NCBI GenBank assembly: GCA_916610825.1
Contig: OU744449.1
Span: 1,612,001 to 1,676,000, forward strand
Source of the DNA: Haliclystus octoradiatus
Taxonomy: Eukaryota; Cnidaria; Staurozoa; Stauromedusae; Haliclystidae
DNA: 64,000 nt
Direction of reading: 5' to 3'
The notes beneath the pieces were generated by a model. That model did no database searches and was not told the origin of the DNA. It saw only the letters and a list, made by a program, of their open reading frames with translations. How positions within the stretch are numbered: the stretch's first letter is position 1; every line of letters starts with the position of its first letter. Positions 15,301 through 38,961 of this stretch are shown here, one piece after another. Position numbers and translations under genes: made by a program.

Positions 15301-18300
15301 AAATCTACTTATAATGTATTTGTTCAAGGAGAATTATCCAGAAAAAGTATGCAAGAAAAAAATTTGTGTCACTAGAAAATAATGAAATGCCACAAGTTTA
15401 CTAGTTCATCAATTGTCAGTCAGTCTCATAGGAAGTGTTCATAAATTGAATACAAACTGTCAAACTAATGAAATTCTCTGCAGGGGTTCGAATTGACACA
15501 GTGTCGGGTGAGGAGTCATCTTTTTCAGTCAATGCCCTTCCAATATTCCAAACCCTATCGATTTAGATCCAACACAATTTATGTTGGTTGACTATAGAAT
15601 CATCATCTTGAAAATGTTTACATTAAGACAACACAAGAAAAAAACATATTTTCGGATGAGAACGATCGCCCAACAAAAGTGTGTGGAGTCAGAATTTTAC
15701 GCCACTGAAAAAAGTCCTTAAAGAAGCGTTTGACTTCGAATCTGGCTCTGAAAATGTAAGAAAAATCAACTGTAACTCCGATTCAGGCTCAAGAATAGTT
15801 CGAACAAACTCTTGTAAAAAGTCAAATTAATTTATCAACCCAAAATTAAGAAAGCAGAGAAAGGTACAAAATAAGCTAACATAATCAGTAATAAGTAGCC
15901 AATCCTTGAATCTTAACCTCTATGTAGAAATAGACAGATAATTTTCAGCTTTGCAATTACCAACAAAGAAGTCTAGACTACGGCTCCGATTCTTGCCACT
16001 GACTGGAAAACATCCATTCTAGTCTGGCTTCTGTAGAGCTCCTGCCAGGCTCAGAGTTGACTCCGACTCCTGTACTGACATTTGACAGACAGGAAGAAGC
16101 TGCTCCTACCTGTATTATCTTTTAGCTTTCAACGTTACAAATAGAGCATCATGAGCTATTCATGAACTGTTTTCACGTTAAATATATTCTAGGATTTTAA
16201 GATTCTCCTTTATCATAAAATTACCTGACATGGGTTCTACAATGATAGATGGATGTTTCTTTATATAGGTAAGATCGTAGGTGAAATCAACTGGTACATC
16301 AGATGAGATTTGAATTGTCTTTGTCTTGCTAATATAAATAAATAAATGAATTGACATATAAATAAATATTGAGATGTTAAACAATTCAACATTGATCATC
16401 TTATATCTGTTTTACGTAAAAATGATATCTAATGACATCAGGACAAATGCCAACAGTCAAATCTTTTGTAAAAAATTGAAGTTTTTTAACGTCAATATTA
16501 ATAAATCAACTTCTTTGACTGCTATCATAATGACATCAACCCCTGCAAAAAACAGTTCGGGAGTTCATGAACAGTTCTTGATTGTTGAACAGTTCTTGAA
16601 CGTTGAACAGTTCATGAACGTTAAATGGCCACAATTTTCATGATTTGTTCATGAACTATTCATGAACTGTTCATGAACTCCCAAATTGTTTTCACAGGGG
16701 AATTGGGGGCCTACATTTTTATTTAACTCAAAAAGTAATATAGGAAGCCTTGCCCAATCAAACATTCCATATTTACACAAACAAATTAATGATCATGAAC
16801 TTTATGAGCTATTCATGAAAAAGAAGCAAATTAACGTTTGTGAATTAGTTCATAACCTGTTCACAAACTGTTCATGACAAACAGTTTAAGGGTTCATAAA
16901 CACTTCATCAACTTTCAAAAACTGTTCATGAACTCTTGAACTGTTTTTAGTCGAGGTAGGCCTACCTATCAGTCAGAAAAACAGTCATGAACACTCAGAA
17001 AAACGTTAGGCCTACAATCTGTATGACTTTGCTTATGTTGAGCAGATTATTAAACGTACCTGTGCCCTACAGGAACTGCTTTGAAGAATAATTGTCTTGG
17101 AAACTTATCAATGTTGATGATAGGATAAGCATGAAGAGGTACCATCAGATGATCTTTGTCCTGCATAATTTATTCAAATTCAAACCAATTACCAAACTTT
17201 TATTTGGTACAGTGAAACCTGTATATAACAGCCAGCTACGTGAGGTAGATAAATTGACCGTTATAGACAGGTGGCCTTTATATACAGGTTTGATTCAATA
17301 GAAAATACTATTTTAGACATTTCAAGAGTGACCACTATAGACAGGTGAGACTGCATAGAGGTGACCATTATAACTATAACAGGTTTGACTGTACTTAAAT
17401 GGTGTCTTTATACATTTTAACATTGAGATATGTTGTCTATATTTCAATAAATATAAACCATATCAAAAAACTGTAGAAGTCTCTGAAATTTCAGATTTCA
17501 TGCCATGTTTGAAACAATTCGAAAATGATTTAACTGGCGATCACTATATGGAATATTACATGAAACATAGTTTCACTATTGCTGTAAGAGACTATCGGCA
17601 AAATCTCTTTGGAAGCTAATTATCTGTCTGATGATTGCATGAAATGTATCACTTTAAGTCACTCCAAACGAATGAGTAATCTTCCAATCCCTTATATAAT
17701 TATTTTTTATTGATTATCTGCACATAAAATACAATGTCTTTGTGTATGTGTGTTTGTGGAGGTTTTTCGCAATTTTTAGGCCATTTCAAAGCCACATGAA
17801 TCAAATAACATCTCATCTGAGAGATAACTACAAAGTGTTGTACCTAATAGGCTTCAATTTTTCAAATTTTCCATTTGCTTTTGCGTATTAAAAGGAAATA
17901 TCATTTCAAATACTGATTTAGTTTTGATTTTTGGAATCACATGCTTTGTTGTGTCGACGATGCGTTCTTATTGTTTGATATTAAAATTCATGTGTTTTCC
18001 AATTTAATTTCACGTCAAAGGTAGTCTAACTTAAGCCACAATTAATCCAGCAACAAGGATAAGAAAGTGCTAGTAAATCATATAGAATTACAGCCAATTA
18101 CAGACTCCTATCAAATAATACATTTTAAAGCAAGTACAGAATATTATCTCAACTTACCGAAGTGTGTATTTTAATGTTATCGTAATGATGATTATAGCTT
18201 GATGCCTTGAAATTAACTAGAATATCGACGAATAAGCCAGGAACAAGGATATTCTACAGAAGAAAATTAATGCGAAACAGGTGCGAAATAATTTGACGAA

Positions 18301-21160
18301 AGATTCACAAATTTCTTACAAATGGTTCATGAACTTCATGGCGGCTCATGCAAAGTTCCTGAACAGATTATGGATATTTCCTAGCGTATTTAATGACATT
18401 TCCTGAACGGTCTGTGAACAGTTCATGAACCAGTTGTTCAAAAGTCCATGAACGTAGGTAATTGACCAAATTTTCCTGAACACTGCAATACCAGTTCATG
18501 AACTGTCCATGAATGCGGTTGGCAATTTCACATGTAGGCTATGGACTTATGAAATGTTTTAACAGTATAACTACCTCTATGAAATCATGAACTGTTTAGA
18601 GTTTAGAAGATGTTCATGAATAGTTCATGAAGTTTCCTAAAATCAATGAACTCACTTCCTAAAATCTGTTCACATCTACTGTTTATGAGCTTGGCGAAGT
18701 TTTTCGCGGGGAAACTATTATTTACATGCATTGATACAAATTGATATACTTACAACTTTTTTATAACTGATAGAAAATTCAGTAGATGAAGGAGGTAAAA
18801 TATGCATTCTCTGACACTCTGATGAGATATTAAGCACCCTCTAAAATGATCAAGAAAAAATAGTAAGAAGTTAAAATCTAAACAGCAAAAACATTAGTCA
18901 TCTTTGAGATAACTTTTATACAAACATTTGTGAACTATCATGAACAACGTATAAACAGTTTCTGAACAGTTCATCAAAGCTGAACAGTATGTTTGTCACG
19001 GAACTTTTCACAAACTGCTCAAGATCAGTGCATAGAAATTTGATCATTTAAAATTCATGAATAATGATAATGAAGATAACATTCATGAACAGTTTTCACA
19101 TGACTAATATAAGTACCTGGAAAAATTTGTAAAACTCGTGAGCAGCAAGTAGAGTGAGCCACATAATATAAAATATTGCTATCACGTCATTCACTTTACG
19201 AATGGCTTTTTCGTATAGGGGGCCTGTAAAATTTTCAGTGGATGAAATGATGTTACAAAAAATCAGAATAACCAATCACAGATTTGCATGTACGACCTTG
19301 GGGTGTGATGGGTCTACTTTTCAAATTTATGAAAGTATTTGTGACGTCTTATGTGAATTGAAAAGTTGCCAAAGGAGATTCGCACACCATTTCATTGTTT
19401 TATTGTTTGTATAATATGTAGGATATTCTGTTTATAGAGTAGGTGACACAAATCTAAGCAAGTGGCACATCAATTCATTCGCTGGGACTTTACAAGGTCC
19501 ATGCGCGGAGTAGCATTGGGCCTCGTGGAATTACGCTTGCGAAAGACAGTTCAGGTGTTTATGAACCGTTCATGAACATTAAATGGCTCAAAATTTTCAT
19601 AAACTGTTCATGAACTGTACATAAACTGTCTGTGAAGTTCATGAACAGTTCATGAAAATTGGGTCCCTCAGCGTTCATGACCTATTCATAAACTGTCCAT
19701 ATGAGGGTTCATGAACAGTTCATAAAAATTGGGGCCCTTAGCTGTTATGAACTGTTCATAAACTGTCTGTGGGGGTTTATGAACAGTTCATGAAAATTGG
19801 GGCCTTTAGCGTTCATGAACTGTTCATAAACTGTCTGTGGGGGTTTATGAACAGTTCATGAAAATTGGGGCCTTTAGCGTTCATGAACTGTTCATGAACT
19901 CCTGAACTGTTTTTCACAGGGAAAGGTTAGCTTTTGCTATCAGGATAGCTCTGTCTCTCTCTGCGTATGAGTTTGTCAGCAAACCGTGCAAGAAAACTTC
20001 TTATCGACTCATTTAAAATCATTGCAAACGTTTGAATTCAAGATTTTCTTTGCTCTACTCAGCAAACTTTGTCACATTTATTTGAAAAATATCTCCAATA
20101 TACTTACGATTTTCCTTGAAATTAACTGATTTTCATCGTAACCTTCAATATAAAGGCTAGGAGGATTGACATCCAATACAAGATTTGATCCAATTTTAGA
20201 GTATATTTCTGGAAAACAAACAAACCGATGTTGCATTTTATATCTTACAGACATGGGTAAGCTACATAAACCATAGTGGCAATTGACTTGGGGCATATCT
20301 GATTTACGGAAAACAGAAAGAAACTAAATTTTCTGTATATTTTCTTCCTGTTTTCCGTTAAATCAGTAGTTCTTATTGGATTGCAGCTACAACAGGTTAG
20401 TTTGACATGGAACTGAGCAAATTTGAAACATTTGGAGTAGACAGGGCAGGGACCTAATTTGAATTTTTATTATATTGGGTTTAATTGAATGTTGGGGGGC
20501 TTATTGAATTCTGATATGCGTTACGTGGCATAAAATTGGCATTTAAAAAATAAATACCTGCAGTTTCAAACCTTCAAGTACAGATAGTCGACTGGATGCA
20601 TCAGGAATTGAAGATCCACACCAATTAACTCAAAGAGAATAAAGCGCTGCCACTGCAAAATGTGAACCATCATTTTTTTATGATGAAATTTAATAGTTGT
20701 AGTCAATATGGAAGAAACAATGTATATTTCAATGTCATCATTGACATTGTCATCTTGTGTCTTGTCATCATGATTGAAGCAACAAAAAGACATTATTCTC
20801 TTATTACTAGGCCTATATAAATATTGAACGATGCTAAAGGGCTTTAATAAAGTAATAATTTGAAAGAGAATTAAAACCTCTATCGTAATCAGACCAAAAA
20901 ACAGTCAGTGACATTGACTCAGCTCAGGATTCAGTCATTCAGGTTGTAAACTCTTGACTTGAGCTTCGTAAGCGACGAGAGTGGTTTCAAATTTGGCAAT
21001 CAAATATTATATCTCACAGAGGAAAATTTACAAATTAATAAAACTAAAGCTTACTGGTTTCTAATAAATGATTTGGAACATATCTTTGACCTCGAGGAGA
21101 CATTTCTTTTGGACTTTCTGGTAAGAAAGTATCAGCAACTGATCCTACCAAAGCCGCCAT
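357..21160 (-). CDS. CFAP221: CFAP221 (PCDP1), N-terminal 10 exons, 3' end outside window
   Basis: Central-pair (C1d projection) protein of motile cilia. Ten exons were rebuilt by hand: 21055-21160 (ATG), 20108-20208, 18754-18840, 18158-18253, 17060-17160, 16225-16328, 15033-15115, 1477-1553, 983-1130 and 357-474. They total 1021 nt, or 340 codons plus one base, and every junction is in phase with GT/AG. Blocks that I recognise from the vertebrate protein, in order, are VPNHLLET, LYIEGYDENQ, RMHILPPSSTEFSISYKK, LVPGLFVDILVNFK, NHHYDNIKIH, LMVPLHAYP, VPVDFTYDLTYIKKHPSI, SVTYSPSEY, TSQFNFVPVQC, RFPSNLNCPSAVA and LMQEPGKL. These cover the ASH/MSP-like beta-sandwich region. The start is the ATG preceding VPNHLLET. 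The last exon seen ends at a GTTTGT donor, and the rest lies left of base 1. Intron 7 carries the 12.7-kb satellite. The identification rests on remembered family sequence, but the run of in-phase matches makes it strong. Confidence 0.92.
771..968. mobile_element. Inverted-repeat element (CCCCTG...CAGGGG), GTTCATGAAC family
   Basis: A 198-bp palindromic element that opens with CCCCTGTGAAAAACAGTTCA and closes with GAACTGTTTTCGCAGGGG. Inside are several GTTCATGAAC decamers around a GTTAAATGG / CCATTTAA pair. It is flanked by AA on both sides, a possible 2-bp target duplication. It has no coding capacity and looks like a MITE or foldback element of unknown superfamily. It lies in the CFAP221 intron between exons 9 and 10. 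Confidence 0.7.
1720..14436. repeat. Giant 20-bp minisatellite, palindromic core, in CFAP221 intron 7
   Basis: About 630 tandem copies of a 20-bp unit, consensus GTTCATGAACGTTTTGAATA, with occasional 19-bp units (GTTTGAATA). GTTCATGAAC is its own reverse complement, so every unit carries a perfect 10-bp palindrome. Recurrent unit variants include ATGCTGTGAATAGTCC, GAAGG, GTCCATGAACATT, ATAATCG and ATCAACC. Their order repeats, showing higher-order structure and segmental duplication. The whole array lies between the CFAP221 exons at 1477-1553 and 15033-15115. Short minus-strand frames of 60 codons inside it are by-products of the repeat and are not genes. Confidence 0.98.
14677..15007. mobile_element. 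Inverted-repeat element (CCCC..AAAAACAG...CAGGGG) beside CFAP221 exon 7
   Basis: This is a 331-bp member of the CCCCTG...CAGGGG family, with many GTTCATGAAC, AAATGGCCC and TCACAG(A/G)GACAG blocks in mirrored order. It is flanked by CAT on both sides. Its right end is only 25 bp from the 3' end of CFAP221 exon 7 (15033), so it sits almost on the donor site. It is also about 240 bp from the end of the 20-bp array built from the same decamer. Confidence 0.65.
16540..16700. mobile_element. Inverted-repeat element, GTTCATGAAC family
   Basis: A 161-bp copy opening CCCCTGCAAAAAACAGTTC and closing TTGTTTTCACAGGGG, flanked by AA on both sides. The interior is mirrored GTTCATGAAC and GTTAAATGGCC. It lies in the CFAP221 intron between exons 5 and 6. 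A degraded stretch of the same words continues to about 16960. Confidence 0.65.
17210..17391. mobile_element. TA-flanked MITE (CAGTGAAACCTG...CAGGTTTGACTG)
   Basis: A 182-bp element with inverted ends CAGTGAAACCTG and CAGGTTTGACTG between TA dinucleotides, as expected for Tc1/mariner-type MITEs. The interior is itself mirrored (GACAGGTGGCC and GGCCACCTGTC-like blocks). The same family recurs in the MIOS introns. It has no coding capacity. Confidence 0.8.
18320..19100. repeat. Degraded GTTCATGAAC-word clusters in a CFAP221 intron
   Basis: Two loose clusters (about 18320-18720 and 18930-19100) of GTTCATGAAC, GTTCATGAA and ACAGTT words flank exon 3 (18754-18840). Element ends are no longer clear. 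They look like decayed relatives of the CCCCTG...CAGGGG elements. Confidence 0.5.
19535..19921. mobile_element. Inverted-repeat element with internal tandem duplication
   Basis: A degenerate left end (GCGAAAGACAGTTCAGG) and right end (CTGAACTGTTTTTCACAGGG) enclose mirrored GTTCATGAAC words. A block of about 65 bp containing ACTGTCTGTGGGGGTTTATG and TTGGGGCCTTTAGCG is repeated in tandem near 19740-19890, so the family can grow by internal duplication. It lies in CFAP221 intron 2. Confidence 0.6.
20299..20366. repeat. Short imperfect hairpin in CFAP221 intron 1
   Basis: CTGATTTACGGAAAACAG on the left faces CTGTTTTCCGTTAAATCAG on the right, with a spacer of roughly 25 bp. This gives an imperfect stem of about 25 bp. 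It is intronic and of unknown origin. Confidence 0.5.
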
Positions 21161-23477: not shown

Positions 23478-26284
23478 ATATTCTACAGATGACTTTCTTT
23501 TCTTTTGTCAATGTTTACTTCTTTTTTAATCCAATCGGAGCAGATAGCAGCTAGTAAGCATCTAAAACTGTAAGTCCAATAACACAAAATTTACACAACA
23601 ACACATACACACATTTTTTAATATAATTTTAAAGCAAGCCACAATATTCAAGTAATGATACGGATCTAGTTTACACAAGAAATTATAGCAATAGACTTGA
23701 GATAGAATCTATAGCGGGCATCGTAGCTACAATGGAATCTGATAACCGACTCAAATGTAATCTATAGATCTTGACCTACAGTCTGCAACAGAGTAAAAAG
23801 TAACAATATATAACCAAAAATATATGTATACAGTATATATATGTACAAGCATTTTTCTCACGGACACTTTATCATCACTATATTTATAATAGGTCAATCT
23901 ATAAATCGCTATTGTTGTAAATTGGTATAAGCCTTGGACCAGTGCAACACTCTATAACTAGGTCAATGGAGTTGCTGTATTGAAGGAACTCTTGTTAACA
24001 TAGGATTAGTAACACATTATATACCGTTGTGGTTTTTATCTGGAAGCTTTTGGCAGTCTACTTCTACTATAAATGTTATCATACGCTCTATATGCGCTGA
24101 GGGAGCGGCGCTGTAGTTGTGCGTTTGGTCACATAGTCATGCCTCCGTCCCAAACTTATCAGCAAAAAGATGGAGGTCGTCTGACTGAAATTTAATATTC
24201 CTGAAGTTCAAAGCTTCGGACAGAGATCAGGCTGTTTTTCATTAGATATATTACAAAATTATGTTACTTACCAACCTACATAGACTCACTGAGGTGTAAC
24301 CTCAATATTCAATAATCATTGTAAAACTCAATATCATTGGAATGCTGTACTTTTATTAAGCATGTCATTTGTCCAGTATAGAGGATATACAGTTAATTAA
24401 GTCGAATTTCAAGTAAGGCCTTCAGAATGCGCCAATCAATACAAATATAATTTTATTATTACCACCAGAGCACACGTATGATTTTTTATATGAGATTTCA
24501 AATTATCAGCAAAAGCGTTTTACATATGGTCATTTTCCGTAATAGGAGCAATTTGACCAGCTGGAGTTGTGATTAAAAATCGTTTTCTTTTTGGTAAAAT
24601 TTCTCTGTTGCACGTGACAGAGCGCACAAATTTTACGCTTTGTATGACGTCGACAATATCTTTATGAATTATTTTTAGACACACATTATATTAAATTTCT
24701 TCTTTCGACGTCACACTGACTGAAGAGACCCTTACCAGATTAATCATGAATTCATACAACCATTATTACAACAATGATATTTTCGTAGCTAAAGCAATGG
24801 AGCTCTACTTGCAGGCCCTTGATCTTTGAACTAGCTTATGGACCAAAGACCAGAGATTAAATATTGCGAGTAAATTTAAACTGACCAAAGAACAGCTAAT
24901 CCTTCAACATACGCACTTGACTGTCAGAGTTAATCTTCTTATATATGGTGTTAAAGAAAGCACCTTTACTTAGAAGTTATTAGCTCCATCAGCTGCTTGG
25001 AATGAGCTATATAGCTCCATGTACGAGAGTAGGGCTCAGTTAAAAGAGAGGAAGCCCTTGGGAAATCGAAATGCATTAAGAAATAGCTTAATCAGTGTTT
25101 TATTTGTTGTAGAGCTACATCAGAAAAGGAGGAAATCCGTGCAACTTTCTCATGTCTAAGCTTGTTTACCAATTGCAAGACCGAAGCGTTTCATGCAATC
25201 ATGTATATACTGTATGCTAGGATATAGTTGACGTTTGATTTTTTACCTACAGTCCCAGAAAAATCTCATGGCTAGTATACACTACAGGCTTGTGGAATGA
25301 ATTTATCGACAATGGACATTCAGGGTGTCATCGACGCTAGATCAAAGGCTCGTGTATAGGTATAACTGATAACACGAGTACGAAATAGGTTTGAATGTCT
25401 TATAAGCCCACTATAAGAACTTGCAAGAGCTGAAATGGAAGTTCATAGTTGGAGCCAATTTAAACGGCAAAAATGTTCACGGGATATATATATATAATTT
25501 GATATATAATAAAAGGAGTCAAAGACTACACATTCATAATTGTTACAACGAGTAACAATTATGAATGTGTAGTCTTTGACTCCTTTTATTATATTTAGCT
25601 CTGTCAAATGATATCGAGCACTATTTTTTGCTATTAGATAATATCTAATATAGTTTGATATATATTTTTTCCATCGGACTCCACGACAGGTTGGATCCAC
25701 TCCATATTACTGGTGCAATCTCCGAATGAGAGGCCCATAAATTTAGATGAAATTTTCTAATGCTGAACCAATTTTTTTGTTCTATTCATATCGAGGGTAG
25801 GCTGCCTATGAGAGGCTCTAATGACATTTGATAGAAATCAACAATATAGCGTATATGCAAAATGTTCTACAAATTCTGATAGGCTCAGCTGGAAAAATAA
25901 CATGGCCGATAAAAACTTGAAGAATTTGGAACAAAAATGAGCAAAATTGATTGTATCACATTTTAACAATTGTCAGCAGTTGATATTGCAAGTAAAATGT
26001 TTCAAAACTTCTTTATAAAAGAGATATCACGAGCGCGGGGAAAGGCATAGTCGGCTTCCTATACTTTATGCTCCCAATTCAACAATGAAAAAATATGATT
26101 AATTACATCATGGATAAGAAAGATTTCATTGCTTTTACAATCATATGTATTACACATAAATATATACGACATAAGATAATATTGAATGTATACCAATAGA
26201 GAAAAACTATAAATACAAAATTATTATAGAAAAATCTCAGACATTTGATGTATTAAAGTCAATCAATGACTTTTATTGAGTTAA
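23478..26284. other. Intergenic region, no gene recognised
   Basis: An AT-rich spacer between the TSP1 gene's stop and the 181-codon ORF. Apart from the perfect hairpin at 25504-25594 I found no coding exon, no tRNA and no strong repeat. Confidence 0.45.
25504..25594. repeat. Perfect 43-bp-arm hairpin
   Basis: The arms 25504-25546 and 25552-25594 are exact reverse complements separated by 5 bases (AACGA). The arm contains AAAAGGAGTCAAAGACTACA. Sequence to the right (GCTCTGTCAAATGATATCGA then TAGATAATATCTA) resembles, in inverted order, 36092-36160. This suggests a fragment of a dispersed foldback element. Confidence 0.85.
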
Positions 26285-27189
26285 TTATAGAGGGATAATA
26301 CCAGGCGCTTTAGGCACAGGTTTGTTGTGATTGGATGGGCAACAGATGGCTGCTGAAAAACGTGGACGGAAAAGAAAGAAATCCGGTGGATGGCATAAAC
26401 AGTGGCATACCCTGGATGATAAAATAGTTTTGGGATGACAACCCTTGTAACAATGACAACGTGACACGTGATGAGAATGTGGACATGTCACATGACTACT
26501 TTCTTTTGTGTATTTCAGATAACATTGTGCATAAGATGAGTGAATTACTTCTCCGCTATGACACGTGTAACCTGTTCCACACGCAAGACGATGGTGGCAG
26601 CTATAGTGGAATAAAAGCATAAAAATCATTATAAAAAAATTCCAATGTGGGAGGAATGACCCTCAACCGGTAAAACCCTGCAAATAGTAGCAGTTTAACC
26701 ACTGATCTATATAAATGACTGGATAAAGCGTTCCAGTAGACACAAATGAAGCTTCCATGGTGCCGTTTCAGTACGCAAAAAAATGTTCGATTAGGCCGAA
26801 ATTTTCGATTTGCTGTTGAAGTTTTTTTTTCGCTAACCGCTGATTTTTTCTCTCAACTTGACAATATTGATAAAAACTTATTAAAAGCTAAACACAAATT
26901 AAACTAACTTAAAACTTATGTTAAATTGAAAATTTCGTACATACTATCTGGTTTGTTGATAGTGAGTGCCCATAATAGATATGGCATTTGTTCTTTGTAT
27001 ACATATACCGATGGAGATGCTTCGACGGGCTATGGGGGAGTAGTATCTTTTCATAATGTTTTGTATCGTGAATTGTGTTATTTACAAGTTTCTTTGTCAG
27101 CTATGTCTGGCCGTGATTTGTGGCGTTCTTTGTGTAGCAAATATATAAGGCGTAAGAGGGACGGCACATTCCTATAATGTGACTGTCTA

Positions 27190-27269
<80 letters not shown>

Positions 27270-30200
27270 TACTACTACTACTACTACTACTACTACTATA
27301 CATATATTTAGTCTTTTGTAGTAGAAAAATTCTTGCTCTATTATCATTGAAAATCATTTCAGTAAACGTCCTAATTTGTCTTCAAACTTTCTTGTTGATG
27401 CACCCATTACTCCAATTGTTTCTATTGTTAGAGGTTGAATAATATGCGTGTCTGCCAAACTTTCGTATTCTTTTTAATTTTCTAGTTTGCTGATTGGAGG
27501 AAATCTGCCATGCCTGCGAGCTATGCCTGCGTGTTGCTGGTTAAAGTACGTTATAGTATTTAAAACGACAGTGCGACTGGACGACCGAACGTACGTTTTA
27601 TGGTCGGATGCCCTCTTCTTGACACCAGCCAACAGTGCTTCTGCCAGGCATTGATCGAAGCCAAGACTCCACAGGTAAAATTTCAACGCCCTACTACCCA
27701 CTACACTATAGGCTGCACTTGTAGTTGAGCATGCGCATTAAATACATACCTTGAACCATAAGTCAAGAGTGGACATACGCATTGTCCTGTTATATGATGA
27801 CATGATCGATGTGGACATGTTTCACAAAGTTGTTGACATTTTTTACCAAACAAACCAAGTGGACATTTTGTAGAACACGTGCGACCCTGAATACACAAGA
27901 AATATGATAGTTTATTAATAATATGGCACTCAATTTTTCATTTTTATTTACCCAGGAGTGACCAGGTTCAGCAACGATACAGCCTTTAATATCGGGGTCG
28001 TGGATATCAAAGGTTTTTGGTTCAGTTACACATTTGACTTTGAGATATACAGGGAAATTAATCGGATGTAATCGGATTTCCATACTTTTGGTATACGGGG
28101 ACGATCAAATATTAAAGTAGCGTCAAAATTCTGAAAAAAATTAAGGGTATTCTTGAGCATGAACATTTTTAGATGAATACTTTTTGGCTTTTGGCAAATT
28201 TTGAAATTATGTTCTCAATTCCTTTTTTTTACTCAAACATTTCTCTCTCTCATTTTTAATGGTAATATGTCTTTTTTCAAATATCTTTGGGGTATCTTTT
28301 TTTCCTTTTTTTTTTGGATTAATCATTTCCCCACAAACCGGGTAGGCTTGCAGCTTATTTTCACCGGGGTGATTGGTTAATTTGTTAGTGTTTTGAAGCT
28401 GGTGTGCGTTTAATAGCCGCATACCCTTCATGACGCCACCTATATAGTGGTCCCGGCGAACAGGGATTGAACCCCCAGACCCTGCGGCCCGTGGTCCAAC
28501 GCCCTAGCCACTACACCATGGTCATGATCTGAAACTTTTTTATGGTGATTTGTCTAAAGTTTTATTTGAATGACAAACTAACTGAAGCGCAATATGGATG
28601 TCACCCTACCGGGAAGATGTAGCTTTTATTCTAAGGGATCCATCATATTTAACATTCAGATGGAAATAGCCTTTACTTAGAAATATTGACTAAATTATAG
28701 CATGAACTGACTCACAAAATCTAAGAGTGATCTTACACATGTGCTTACGAATTATGTTGCACAAGAAGAATCTAAACTTTTGACACTGAAATTTCGGCTT
28801 GGGAATTAACACTTTTCTCATTTATCTTATGTACAATATCATGTTATACAGCGAGCGGAAACATATATGATAGCAACACCAAAGTTACCGCTTGACCCGG
28901 AGGAGGGGTACCTTCCATACTTTCGGTATACGGGGATGTTCAAATATTAAGGGGTACCTTTTTCAAAATCCACAAAAAATTTTAAGGGCATGCTTTGTTA
29001 TGAAAACTTTTTGAGGATCCTTTTTGACAAATCGCAATTTTTCATTATGCAAAACAAATTTTGCCTATGAAATTATTATTTGTTTCATTGTTTTTGGTTG
29101 AATCTGCCATTCATGAAAATGTATTTGGGGTATCTTTTTCATTATGCGAAACATATTTATAGTCATTCTGCCAAAGTTCCATTTGAACAACCCCGTCGAA
29201 GCGCAATGGAAGTTACCCCCAGGGCCGCTTGGGCACTCCCGTGCACATTACAGTCTTAATTAACTCATATCACTGCAAGCGTCTACTAGCGTACACATTG
29301 GAGAATCAGAAATGAAGTAACTACTCACCAGATAGCCTGTTTTACAATGACATGCTCCATTGTCACCGCAGATTCCATGTACACATCTAAAATATAAACA
29401 TGACAGTACTATATGGTCTGACAGGCTGTAATAAGTGCAACACTCTTGAAATAATACGGTGCATAATATATATACATTAACTCACTATAGAGGCTCTAAA
29501 GTGCTAGGCCGACTATATAAAATGCCACGCACTATTCAGTATGTCAATAAATTCAACAATCATAGTATCTATAACGGCAAGCTATACAGTGGCACACCCA
29601 TGCATTATAGTTGTCCATAGCTGAGACTATCAACTGCCACATCCTTTGTATCTACTGTACAGTGATGTGAACATTAATTTACTCTATATCAGATACGTAC
29701 TTGCTTGGTTTATGACATTTTCTTGTTTCTGATAGCGTCCCAGGACATGGTCTACCTTTGCATTCATGTTGTCTTACTACCGTTCCATATCTTCTTTCAG
29801 TTCCATCGCATTGACAATCCGTCCATTCACTCCAACGGACTTCACAGTGAACAGGACAACACACACGATTACATGATCTACTCTCGTCCAATTTAAACAG
29901 GCATGTACCATTACATTGTTCTGTGAGAATCTTTCCTCTATGTCTTGATTGCGTCCCGTTCGAGCCACATGTATTCGAGCATTTATCCCATTCACCCCAG
30001 AAACCAACGGAACAATCTTGACGGCAGCAAGGTACGTCACACTTGGCAGTATCAAGTAATTTTGAGTTACACTCACCTCCACATTCTTCATCTTTAGTAA
30101 CGACACGACTTCTACGTTTAATGCTTTCACCGCAAGAGGTAGAACAACTAGTATAGTTAGACCATGCAGATACTTTACAATCTTGTGGGCAACAAATACG

Positions 30201-30944
30201 ATTACATTCACCAACTTCTGTTAGAGGGAAGCAACTTCCGTTACATGAAGCTTGTTGAACGATTTCCCTCGTACGTGATCTGGTACCATTCTGTCCACAT
30301 GAAGCACTACATGACTCCCAGTTCTCCCATTCAGTAACAAAGCAGTCTTGGGGACAACATTTACGATTACATGACCGTGTTTCTTCAGTTGGGGGGCAGG
30401 TTCCCTTGCAAGATGCTGGTATTAAAACATCTCTTGTACGCAATTGTTCACCATGTGAGCCACACGAAGAGGAACATGATGTGTAATTACCCCATTCAGC
30501 AACTTGACAATCCACGGCACAGCAGTGACGATTGCATGGTCGTTTTTCAGATAAAACATTAGTACAAGTACCACCACAAGTTTGTTTTATAGATACAGAT
30601 CTTGAACGTGATTGATGACCATCTTCACCACAACTTGCTGTACATTTATCCCATACTTTCCATTCACTGTATTCACAATCTTTCGCACAGCATTCTGTAT
30701 TACAGTGTCTTGTAGTTAAACGATGTGGACAGGAATCTCCACCGCAATGTGGATGTCTAGTAATAGATCGACGGCCTTCTTCTATACCTCCACCACAAGT
30801 GACCGAACATTCACTCCATTCCCAAGATGAAACACGACAATCTATCGGATGACATGTTCTTCTTCTTCTAGAAAGCCAACTATCTCCATCACTAGCAAAT
30901 AATCCAACTATTAAGGTCACCAGAGTGACTTTCCACCACCTCAT
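26285..30944 (-). CDS. Secreted protein: signal peptide, 7 TSP1, EGF-like, RELM-like C-terminus
   Basis: Four exons join in phase (29701-30944, 29329-29386, 27750-27886, 26285-26600), giving 1755 nt and 584 residues. Residues 1-22 are a signal peptide, followed by a basic SRRRR. Thrombospondin type 1 repeats span about 36-86, 90-142, 146-197, 201-252, 256-307, 311-363 and 367-410. Six have the C-S/T-x-T/S-C-G core and a W-x-x-W/Y start, with linkers of the form CCxxDC. The seventh (CQCDG) is a variant. EGF-like modules follow: [14 protein letters not shown] is completed across the intron by KTGYLGRTC, then [18 protein letters not shown] continues in the style of MEGF/laminin EGF. The last exon has ten cysteines at 506, 519, 528, 530, 534, 545, 547, 549, 566 and 567, which is the resistin/RELM spacing. 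The TSP1+EGF layout recalls the ascidian Ci-meta1. The product is presumably extracellular matrix or signalling; its function is unknown. Confidence 0.88.
26926..27177 (+). pseudogene. Possible RNase H-like retroelement fragment
   Basis: An open frame of 83 codons in the last intron of the TSP1 gene, on the opposite strand. It contains [16 protein letters not shown], reminiscent of the TDAS-x-x-GxGGV segment of retroelement RNase H domains (DIRS/Ty3 type). No flanking reverse transcriptase or LTR was seen. It is a short, truncated relic at best, and the match could be chance. Confidence 0.3.
27191..27297. repeat. (CTA)n microsatellite
   Basis: About 35 ACT/CTA trinucleotides with one interruption (CTATA near 27269), in the last intron of the TSP1 gene. 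Confidence 0.97.
27952..28083 (-). other. Possible cassette or alternative first exon of the TSP1 gene
   Basis: This open stretch lies in the intron between the two EGF-encoding exons. It reads [15 protein letters not shown] near its start and [11 protein letters not shown] before a TGG|GTAAAT donor that is in phase with the next exon. No acceptor is in phase with the upstream exon, and skipping it gives a better EGF (GYL joined to GRTC). It is therefore either an alternative ATG-starting exon or chance coding-like sequence. Its 5' edge abuts a dispersed repeat that starts at 28081. Confidence 0.3.
28081..28230. repeat. Dispersed repeat, copy 1 (CATACTTTYGGTATACGGGG)
   Basis: This begins CATACTTTTGGTATACGGGG and continues CAAATATTAA...AAAAATT(T)TAAGGG. 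A second copy begins at about 28917 in the same intron and extends to about 29240. The family is unknown. Confidence 0.6.
28315..28515 (-). mobile_element. tRNA-derived SINE
   Basis: On the minus strand the head reads ATGGTGTAGTGGCTAGGGCG (A-box-like) and, about 30 bases later, GGGGTTCAATCCCTG (B box). A body follows with GGTGTGCGTTTAATAGCC-type sequence seen again near 31421-31540 and 40416-40500. The tRNA fold is incomplete and it lies inside an intron, so I call it a SINE and not a tRNA gene. Confidence 0.65.
28903..29240. repeat. Dispersed repeat, copy 2
   Basis: CATACTTTCGGTATACGGGG plus downstream AAATATTAAGGGGTACC and TTTTAAGGGCATGC correspond to the copy at 28081-28230. It ends near GCAATGGAAGTTACCCCC. 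It lies in the intron before exon 2 of the TSP1 gene's EGF region. Confidence 0.55.

Positions 30945-31944: not shown

Positions 31945-38961
<7,017 letters not shown>

Follow-up and report, generated by a model that had tools for sequence, protein, structure and literature searches.

The closest described relatives of the domain reported here are resistin and the RELM proteins, for which the cysteine spacing C-X11-C-X8-C-X-C-X3-C-X10-C-X-C-X-C-X9-CC-X3-6-END has been printed (PMC9869618). PMC8253364 describes a resistin head at the C-terminus, a six-stranded jelly roll, with a coiled coil bringing three protomers together. Human resistin is described as naturally trimeric, and its C-terminal fusion to a foreign ectodomain gave trimers (PMC8576046). 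The initial annotation of the present DNA had treated RELM as a vertebrate domain. This is contradicted by Table 2 of PMC6214176, in which a Resistin row lists the domain as present in sea anemones and absent in corals, undiscussed in the available text of that paper. Invertebrate resistin domains are, in themselves, already known from that sea-anemone entry. A search of the full-text literature gave no recognisable TSP1-EGF-RELM or collagen-RELM protein among the matches listed. Here, we analyzed a window of 64,000 nucleotides (the whole stretch of DNA considered) from Haliclystus octoradiatus. The tunicate source presumed in the initial annotation gained no backing from sequence searches: neither Glyco_hydro_6, a part of tunicate cellulose synthase, nor an ascidian spliced-leader pattern gave a match, and both are weak indicators. 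On its minus strand we predict a gene whose last exon encodes a candidate RELM-type head behind TSP1 and EGF-like modules.

Predicted gene structure

The predicted gene has four coding exons totalling 1755 nt, corresponding to 584 aa plus the stop. Splice sites of this gene and of its paralog were placed by hand, with home-made scores derived from approximate consensus frequencies instead of a trained model. Coding exon 1 (29701..30944, minus) contains the ATG, a hydrophobic leader at residues ~1-22 (judged by eye), a basic SRRRR stretch and seven TSP1 repeats, and it ends at the donor CAA/GTACGT in phase 2. TSP_1 (PF00090) and TSP1_spondin (PF19028) each match seven stretches of the protein, scoring 126.7 and 171.2 bits against cut-offs of 21.6 and 41, respectively; TSP1_spondin is the best Pfam family for these repeats (E 5e-51). 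The query behind these scores still included the stretch 28032-27952, rejected below. The first EGF-like module lies on coding exon 2 (29329..29386, minus; phase 2 in, phase 0 out), which has a counterpart exon in the paralog. Coding exon 3 (27750..27886, minus; phase 0 in, phase 2 out) supplies the end of EGF 1 and a second EGF-like module. The EGF region shows motif ends of the CxCxxGYxGxxC type. The four Pfam EGF profiles listed for it are all below cut-off, EGF_PEAR1L at E 3.5e-6 included. The intron phases are 2, 0 and 2, and the last two splice junctions each complete an EGF end.

Coding exon 4 (26285..26600, minus) encodes the cysteine that closes the EGF, 24 residues that include two cysteines, the RELM-type head, a 17-residue tail and the stop TAA. 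Its start at 26600 is set by the acceptor CTATAG/C. An alternative acceptor at 26571 was rejected as out of phase with exon 3, despite its slightly better home-made score (6.9 vs 6.0). An AATAAA at 26272..26277 (minus), just 3' of the stop, is a candidate poly(A) signal and is consistent with a terminal exon.

One further open stretch, 27952..28032 (minus, 27 residues), was tried as an exon and dropped: its phases misfit, exons 2 and 3 join directly as in the paralog, and the DNA just upstream (28078-28115) repeats at 28913-28950. These two copies form a 38-nt direct repeat in intron 2 and are 92% identical. Between them, the region ~28330-28540 has a tRNA-derived look by eye; ARAGORN finds no tRNA in 28300-28700. 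Elsewhere in the window, a long trinucleotide repeat at 35737-36132 reads as 104 Asn on the plus strand and as Leu on the minus strand, and in 18300-19900 a TTCATGAAC(TG)-like motif, picked out by eye, recurs many times.

Cysteine array and profile matches of the last exon

Minus-strand translation of the open frame 26662-26285 contains a ten-cysteine array with gaps of 12, 8, 1, 3, 10, 1, 1, 16 and 0, in RELM order and ending in CC. Retranslation thus gave the same spacing as had been reported for this exon in the initial annotation. In the 584-aa spliced model the cysteines stand at 506, 519, 528, 530, 534, 545, 547, 549, 566 and 567, and the head proper (26339..26524, minus) runs from Cys506 to Cys567, 62 residues. 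The coordinates, numbering and motifs previously given for the last exon agree with this model, including a TCP at residues 518-520, which fits Cys519. Against the signature printed in PMC9869618, seven of the nine gaps are exact, one differs by a single residue and the last loop has seven residues more, which bears out the earlier count of eight of nine gaps exact or within one. The exact spacing published in PMC9869618 is absent from the window head, its gaps of 12 and 16 standing against 11 and 9, and its tail having 17 residues. A tolerant form of the cysteine pattern occurred in 0 of 200,000 full shuffles. Ahead of the head, the stretch from the last EGF cysteine (26525-26599, minus) carries two more cysteines in both paralogs (C-x5-C-x5-C), possibly forming an extra disulfide loop or interchain cysteines.

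The exon was compared with the 24,736 models of the Pfam library, in which Resistin (PF06954) has a curated cut-off of 25 bits. Resistin ranked first for the exon with E 3e-4 and 21.7 bits, and a trimmed 93-aa piece reached E 2.4e-5 and 25.3 bits, so the exon straddles the cut-off (21.7-25.3 vs 25 bits). This profile had been proposed earlier as a check on the RELM assignment. The assignment is supported in that Resistin leads for the exon; the trimmed piece lies at the cut-off, the whole exon stays below 25 bits and the full-length 584-aa protein gives no Resistin match at E<=1. A match to HTH_TANC1 (E 0.013-0.36) was set aside as chance; it lies below its cut-off, and Pfam describes a winged helix-turn-helix domain. 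In a PDB sequence search at E<=10, the exon found only mouse resistin (1rfx/1rgx) and RELMb (1rh7), with E 0.014-0.046. AlphaFold run on the single sequence without an alignment gave a pLDDT of 35.1; a second prediction gave 47.5 with three strands, and both are uninformative about the fold.

Shuffled sequences served as controls for these scores. Against a pooled profile of four RELM sequences (two from mouse and two from the collagen-RELM genes described below, with the window sequence left out), the window scored 33.4 bits. The best full shuffle scored 10.0 and the best cysteine-preserving shuffle 28.1, with 5,000 made of each kind, so none came up to the window. With two-sequence profiles, the window score was reached by 61 of 5,000 cysteine-preserving shuffles for mouse alone and by 10 of 5,000 for collagen-RELM alone. 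By these counts (0, 61 and 10), the case for the window head is strong with the pooled profile and less so with each half on its own. Each of fifteen segments taken from the EGF and TSP1 modules of the window protein and its paralog scored below 0 on the three RELM profiles. Convergence, in which a fast-evolving cysteine-rich tail acquired RELM-like spacing without descent from resistin, would account for an exon score close to the Pfam cut-off and for the shuffles that match it on the mouse-only profile. We regard this as very improbable: with the pooled profile, residues other than cysteine add signal that no shuffle reproduced, and the relatives of the head in the same genome bear on the question as well.

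A paralog and two collagen genes with related heads

The own genome, 261.9 Mb in 33 contigs, was searched at the protein level with the EGF-RELM region. This query, which still included the later-rejected exon 28032-27952, gave matches at C11:1594461-1594724 (E 7.5e-6) and C11:1595453-1595587 (E 5.8e-5). They belong to a paralog at C11:1598103-1594395 (minus) of four exons and 545 aa. Its layout is the same as that of the window gene, with a leader, TSP1 repeats, two EGFs and a RELM-like last exon. Its intron phases are 2/0/2, equal to those of the window gene with hand-placed splice sites in both, and exon 3 is 137 nt long in each. The paralog has six TSP1_spondin and five TSP_1 stretches, a TSP1_CFP_C match (E 1.5e-12) and an EGF_laminin match over cut-off (32.0 vs 21 bits). 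Over a two-repeat TSP1 query the two proteins show 47% identity; for the last exon the figure is 23-24%. Mainly because the layout is kept at this divergence, we take the RELM exon to be part of the TSP1-EGF gene. The joining of the last exon to the TSP1 exons, as put forward in the initial annotation, is supported by the equal layout and intron phases of these predicted gene models, and a RELM-type head is very probably joined to TSP1-EGF here. Beside the paralog, C11:1600757-1603578 contains near-identical open frames ~2.2 kb apart, which may be a recent tandem duplication or a repeat.

The last exon could instead, or in addition, be a separate short gene for a 114-aa stand-alone secreted RELM-like peptide. 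In the frame 26285-26650 (minus), which needs no splice, methionines stand 114 and 111 aa ahead of the stop and lead into a hydrophobic stretch. A length of 114 aa falls within the 105-114 aa range given for RELM hormones (PMC9869618). Moreover, the exon 3-4 join is predicted from DNA across an intron of ~1.15 kb that contains a CTA/TAC trinucleotide microsatellite (27187-27307). Against this, the hydrophobic residues are a reading of the T-rich tract of the acceptor site, and the paralog frame upstream of its last exon offers only LCFR with no methionine. The exon 3-4 join also completes an EGF end, keeps the 1755-nt frame and has an equal phase in the paralog. A separate gene is therefore highly improbable in our estimation, a shade more so than convergence, and the single four-exon gene is the reading we keep. 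A short RELM-like transcript from the 114-aa frame, overlapping the exon 4 acceptor, would nevertheless be of interest.

The head of the paralog departs from the array, with gaps of 12, 8, 1, 3, 10 and 1, valine in place of cysteine 8, the final CC kept and an extra cysteine after it. Resistin is again top in Pfam for its last exon, with E 0.2 for the whole exon and 9.6e-4 when trimmed. Taken alone, this tail is weak: on the three profiles, 27, 95 and 629 of 5,000 cysteine-preserving shuffles did as well. When the two TSP1-paralog tails were combined into one profile and searched against the PDB at E<=10, only resistin/RELMb matched (three entries, E 0.0026-0.0086). In profile-profile comparison, the two tails matched the mouse RELMs with a probability of 80% (E 1.5e-5) and the heads of the collagen genes with 62% (E 7.6e-5), which are moderate values.

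The own genome was also searched with the Resistin profile. This search scores best candidates only, so the number of places is a lower bound. At E<=10 it gave at least three places: the window exon (21.8 bits, E 0.055), C11:3290345-3290527 (E 2e-10) and C11:3304920-3305126 (E 0.018). At this threshold, two bacterial genomes among the 14 controls also gave matches below the cut-off, so E<=10 lets chance hits through. At E<=0.001, the only match was C11:3290345-3290527, with none in the 14 control genomes. Of the Resistin matches recorded in the genome, the strongest thus belongs to a collagen gene on C11 and not to the window.

Each of these C11 places is the end of a collagen gene, and the two genes are divergent in orientation (within C11:3280001-3310000). 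The pieces seen of these genes span C11:3290312-3294257 (minus) and C11:3298534-3305144 (plus), each with a RELM head at its C-terminus, and their N-terminal pieces lie ~4 kb apart. A single open frame in each gene runs from about four Gly-X-Y triplets into the RELM head, and the collagen-RELM join can therefore be read without assuming a splice. The heads have domain E-values of 7.4e-13, a clear match, and 2.6e-5 (25.1 bits vs 25). The second head has gaps of 12, 8, 1, 3, 9, 1, 1, 17 and 0, with a long last loop like that of the window protein. The clearest collagen head (E 7.4e-13) also departs from the published spacing, with a first gap of 12, an extra cysteine and a last loop of 8. Pfam would catch this head automatically in any proteome having it. 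Both genes also encode an N-terminal cysteine-rich domain (C11:3294257-3294006, minus; C11:3298534-3298800, plus) with the pattern CTKV/CTKI..EP..W.N.YIC...WSH.GP...C..C...YLC..C and no Pfam match over cut-off. Upstream of the minus-strand collagen gene there is an exon of similar appearance.

A profile of the four heads of this genome, without any mouse sequence, found RELMb at 8.9e-10 and resistin at 3.4e-7 in the PDB, followed by bursicon at 0.32. Much of this signal is due to the clearest collagen head; used by itself, that head reaches RELMb at 1e-10. Searching the own genome at the protein level with one head at a time revealed no fifth RELM member; distant ones would escape these searches, as the paralog escaped the Pfam search. 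Two other loci were considered and rejected. C2:8036747 (E 0.23) was read and is not a RELM, and C7:10821378 is a many-EGF gene with no RELM array among the cysteine-rich frames listed in 10 kb.

These relatives bear on two alternatives. For convergence, the paralog is weaker still than the window exon, and the profile-profile probabilities are moderate. On the other side, Resistin comes first in Pfam for both TSP1-EGF paralogs, and the same genome has collagen RELM heads, one of them certain and one with an equally long last loop. A second alternative places the window head nearer to the C-terminal modules of PCSK9, which have a resistin-like fold, than to RELM. A review likens the jelly roll of resistin to PCSK9 (PMC4474570), and PCSK9_C3 is a weak second match for one collagen-RELM head (E 0.043). 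Resistin outranks PCSK9_C3 on that head, and no PCSK9 model in Pfam matches the window exon at E<=10, which makes this placement barely credible. Descent from a RELM-type domain remains the preferred reading for the window head.

Proposed trimerisation and comparison with known systems

On balance, we favour the explanation that the window exon encodes a resistin/RELM-type head, that this head is the C-terminal module of a predicted secreted protein, and that such heads would cluster the arms in threes. The head would fold like the resistin jelly roll, and heads would pack in threes as in resistin, making the exon a putative C-terminal oligomeriser. Three TSP1-EGF arms would thereby be gathered into one multivalent adhesion or recognition molecule. 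The TSP1 arms might then bind matrix glycans, cell-surface ligands or microbial ligands with higher avidity. The trimeriser role for the TSP1-EGF arms is drawn by analogy and is tentative, falling slightly short of an even chance, and any particular ligand of the arms is less secure again. The collagen-RELM genes fit the trimeriser idea because collagen chains must form a trimer to fold. The RELM head by itself may not trimerise, as the resistin trimer is described as made via the coiled-coil tail.

Alternatively, the RELM-type head could be a ligand- or membrane-binding module, directed at a receptor, a lipid or a microbe, with oligomerisation incidental. TSP1 repeats are common recognition modules, and the window head is basic: its 62 residues include 8 His, 4 Lys and 4 Arg but a single Asp and a single Glu. 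A review (PMC8253364) presents resistin itself as a peptide of host defence whose head carries positive charge, and gives TLR4 and CAP1 as its binding partners. The window sequence, however, names no ligand, and trimeric tips explain the collagen-linked heads more easily. We therefore consider a binding role as the main function unlikely, while giving it a real share of the probability, and retain clustering in threes as the preferred reading.

These genes also bear on the origin of the family, for which the collagen-RELM genes are more telling than the window gene. Together they suggest that, beyond its role as a short hormone, the resistin domain can serve as a tip module on proteins of the matrix type. 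It is conceivable, though doubtful, that the RELM domain was first such a matrix-protein tip clustering chains in threes, and that vertebrate resistins are its stripped-down descendants, in which a short coiled coil replaced the collagen or TSP1 stalk. Studies of resistin usually treat it as a short hormone; heads on collagen and on TSP1-EGF proteins in one genome provide sequences for asking where the family came from. They also allow one to ask whether holding chains together is the basic job of RELM.

Compared with resistin/RELM (FIZZ; PF06954; 1rfx, 1rgx, 1rh7), the window head has the ten cysteines in the same order with eight of nine gaps within one residue. It also has the SCP/TCP at cysteine 2, the CHC, the final CC and the C-terminal position. 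It differs in a first loop longer by one, a last loop longer by seven and a tail of 17 residues vs 3-6. In the favoured model it belongs to a 584-aa modular protein, in contrast to RELM hormones of 105-114 aa (PMC9869618). Exact spacing, short tail and stand-alone size are all lacking in that model, and the window protein is therefore a carrier of a RELM-type domain, not a RELM hormone. The collagen-RELM genes resemble the window gene in placing a C-terminal RELM head on a modular extracellular-type protein, and they differ in that a Gly-X-Y stalk and a different cysteine-rich N-terminal domain stand where the window protein has TSP1-EGF. Spondin-like and properdin-like TSP1 proteins have TSP1 repeats akin to those of the window protein (TSP1_spondin is the best match, and the paralog matches TSP1_CFP_C); we know of no RELM head in these families. 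Collagen proteins of the C1q/adiponectin type combine a collagen stalk with a trimeric C-terminal jelly-roll head of another domain family, and they are comparable to the collagen-RELM genes by analogy only.
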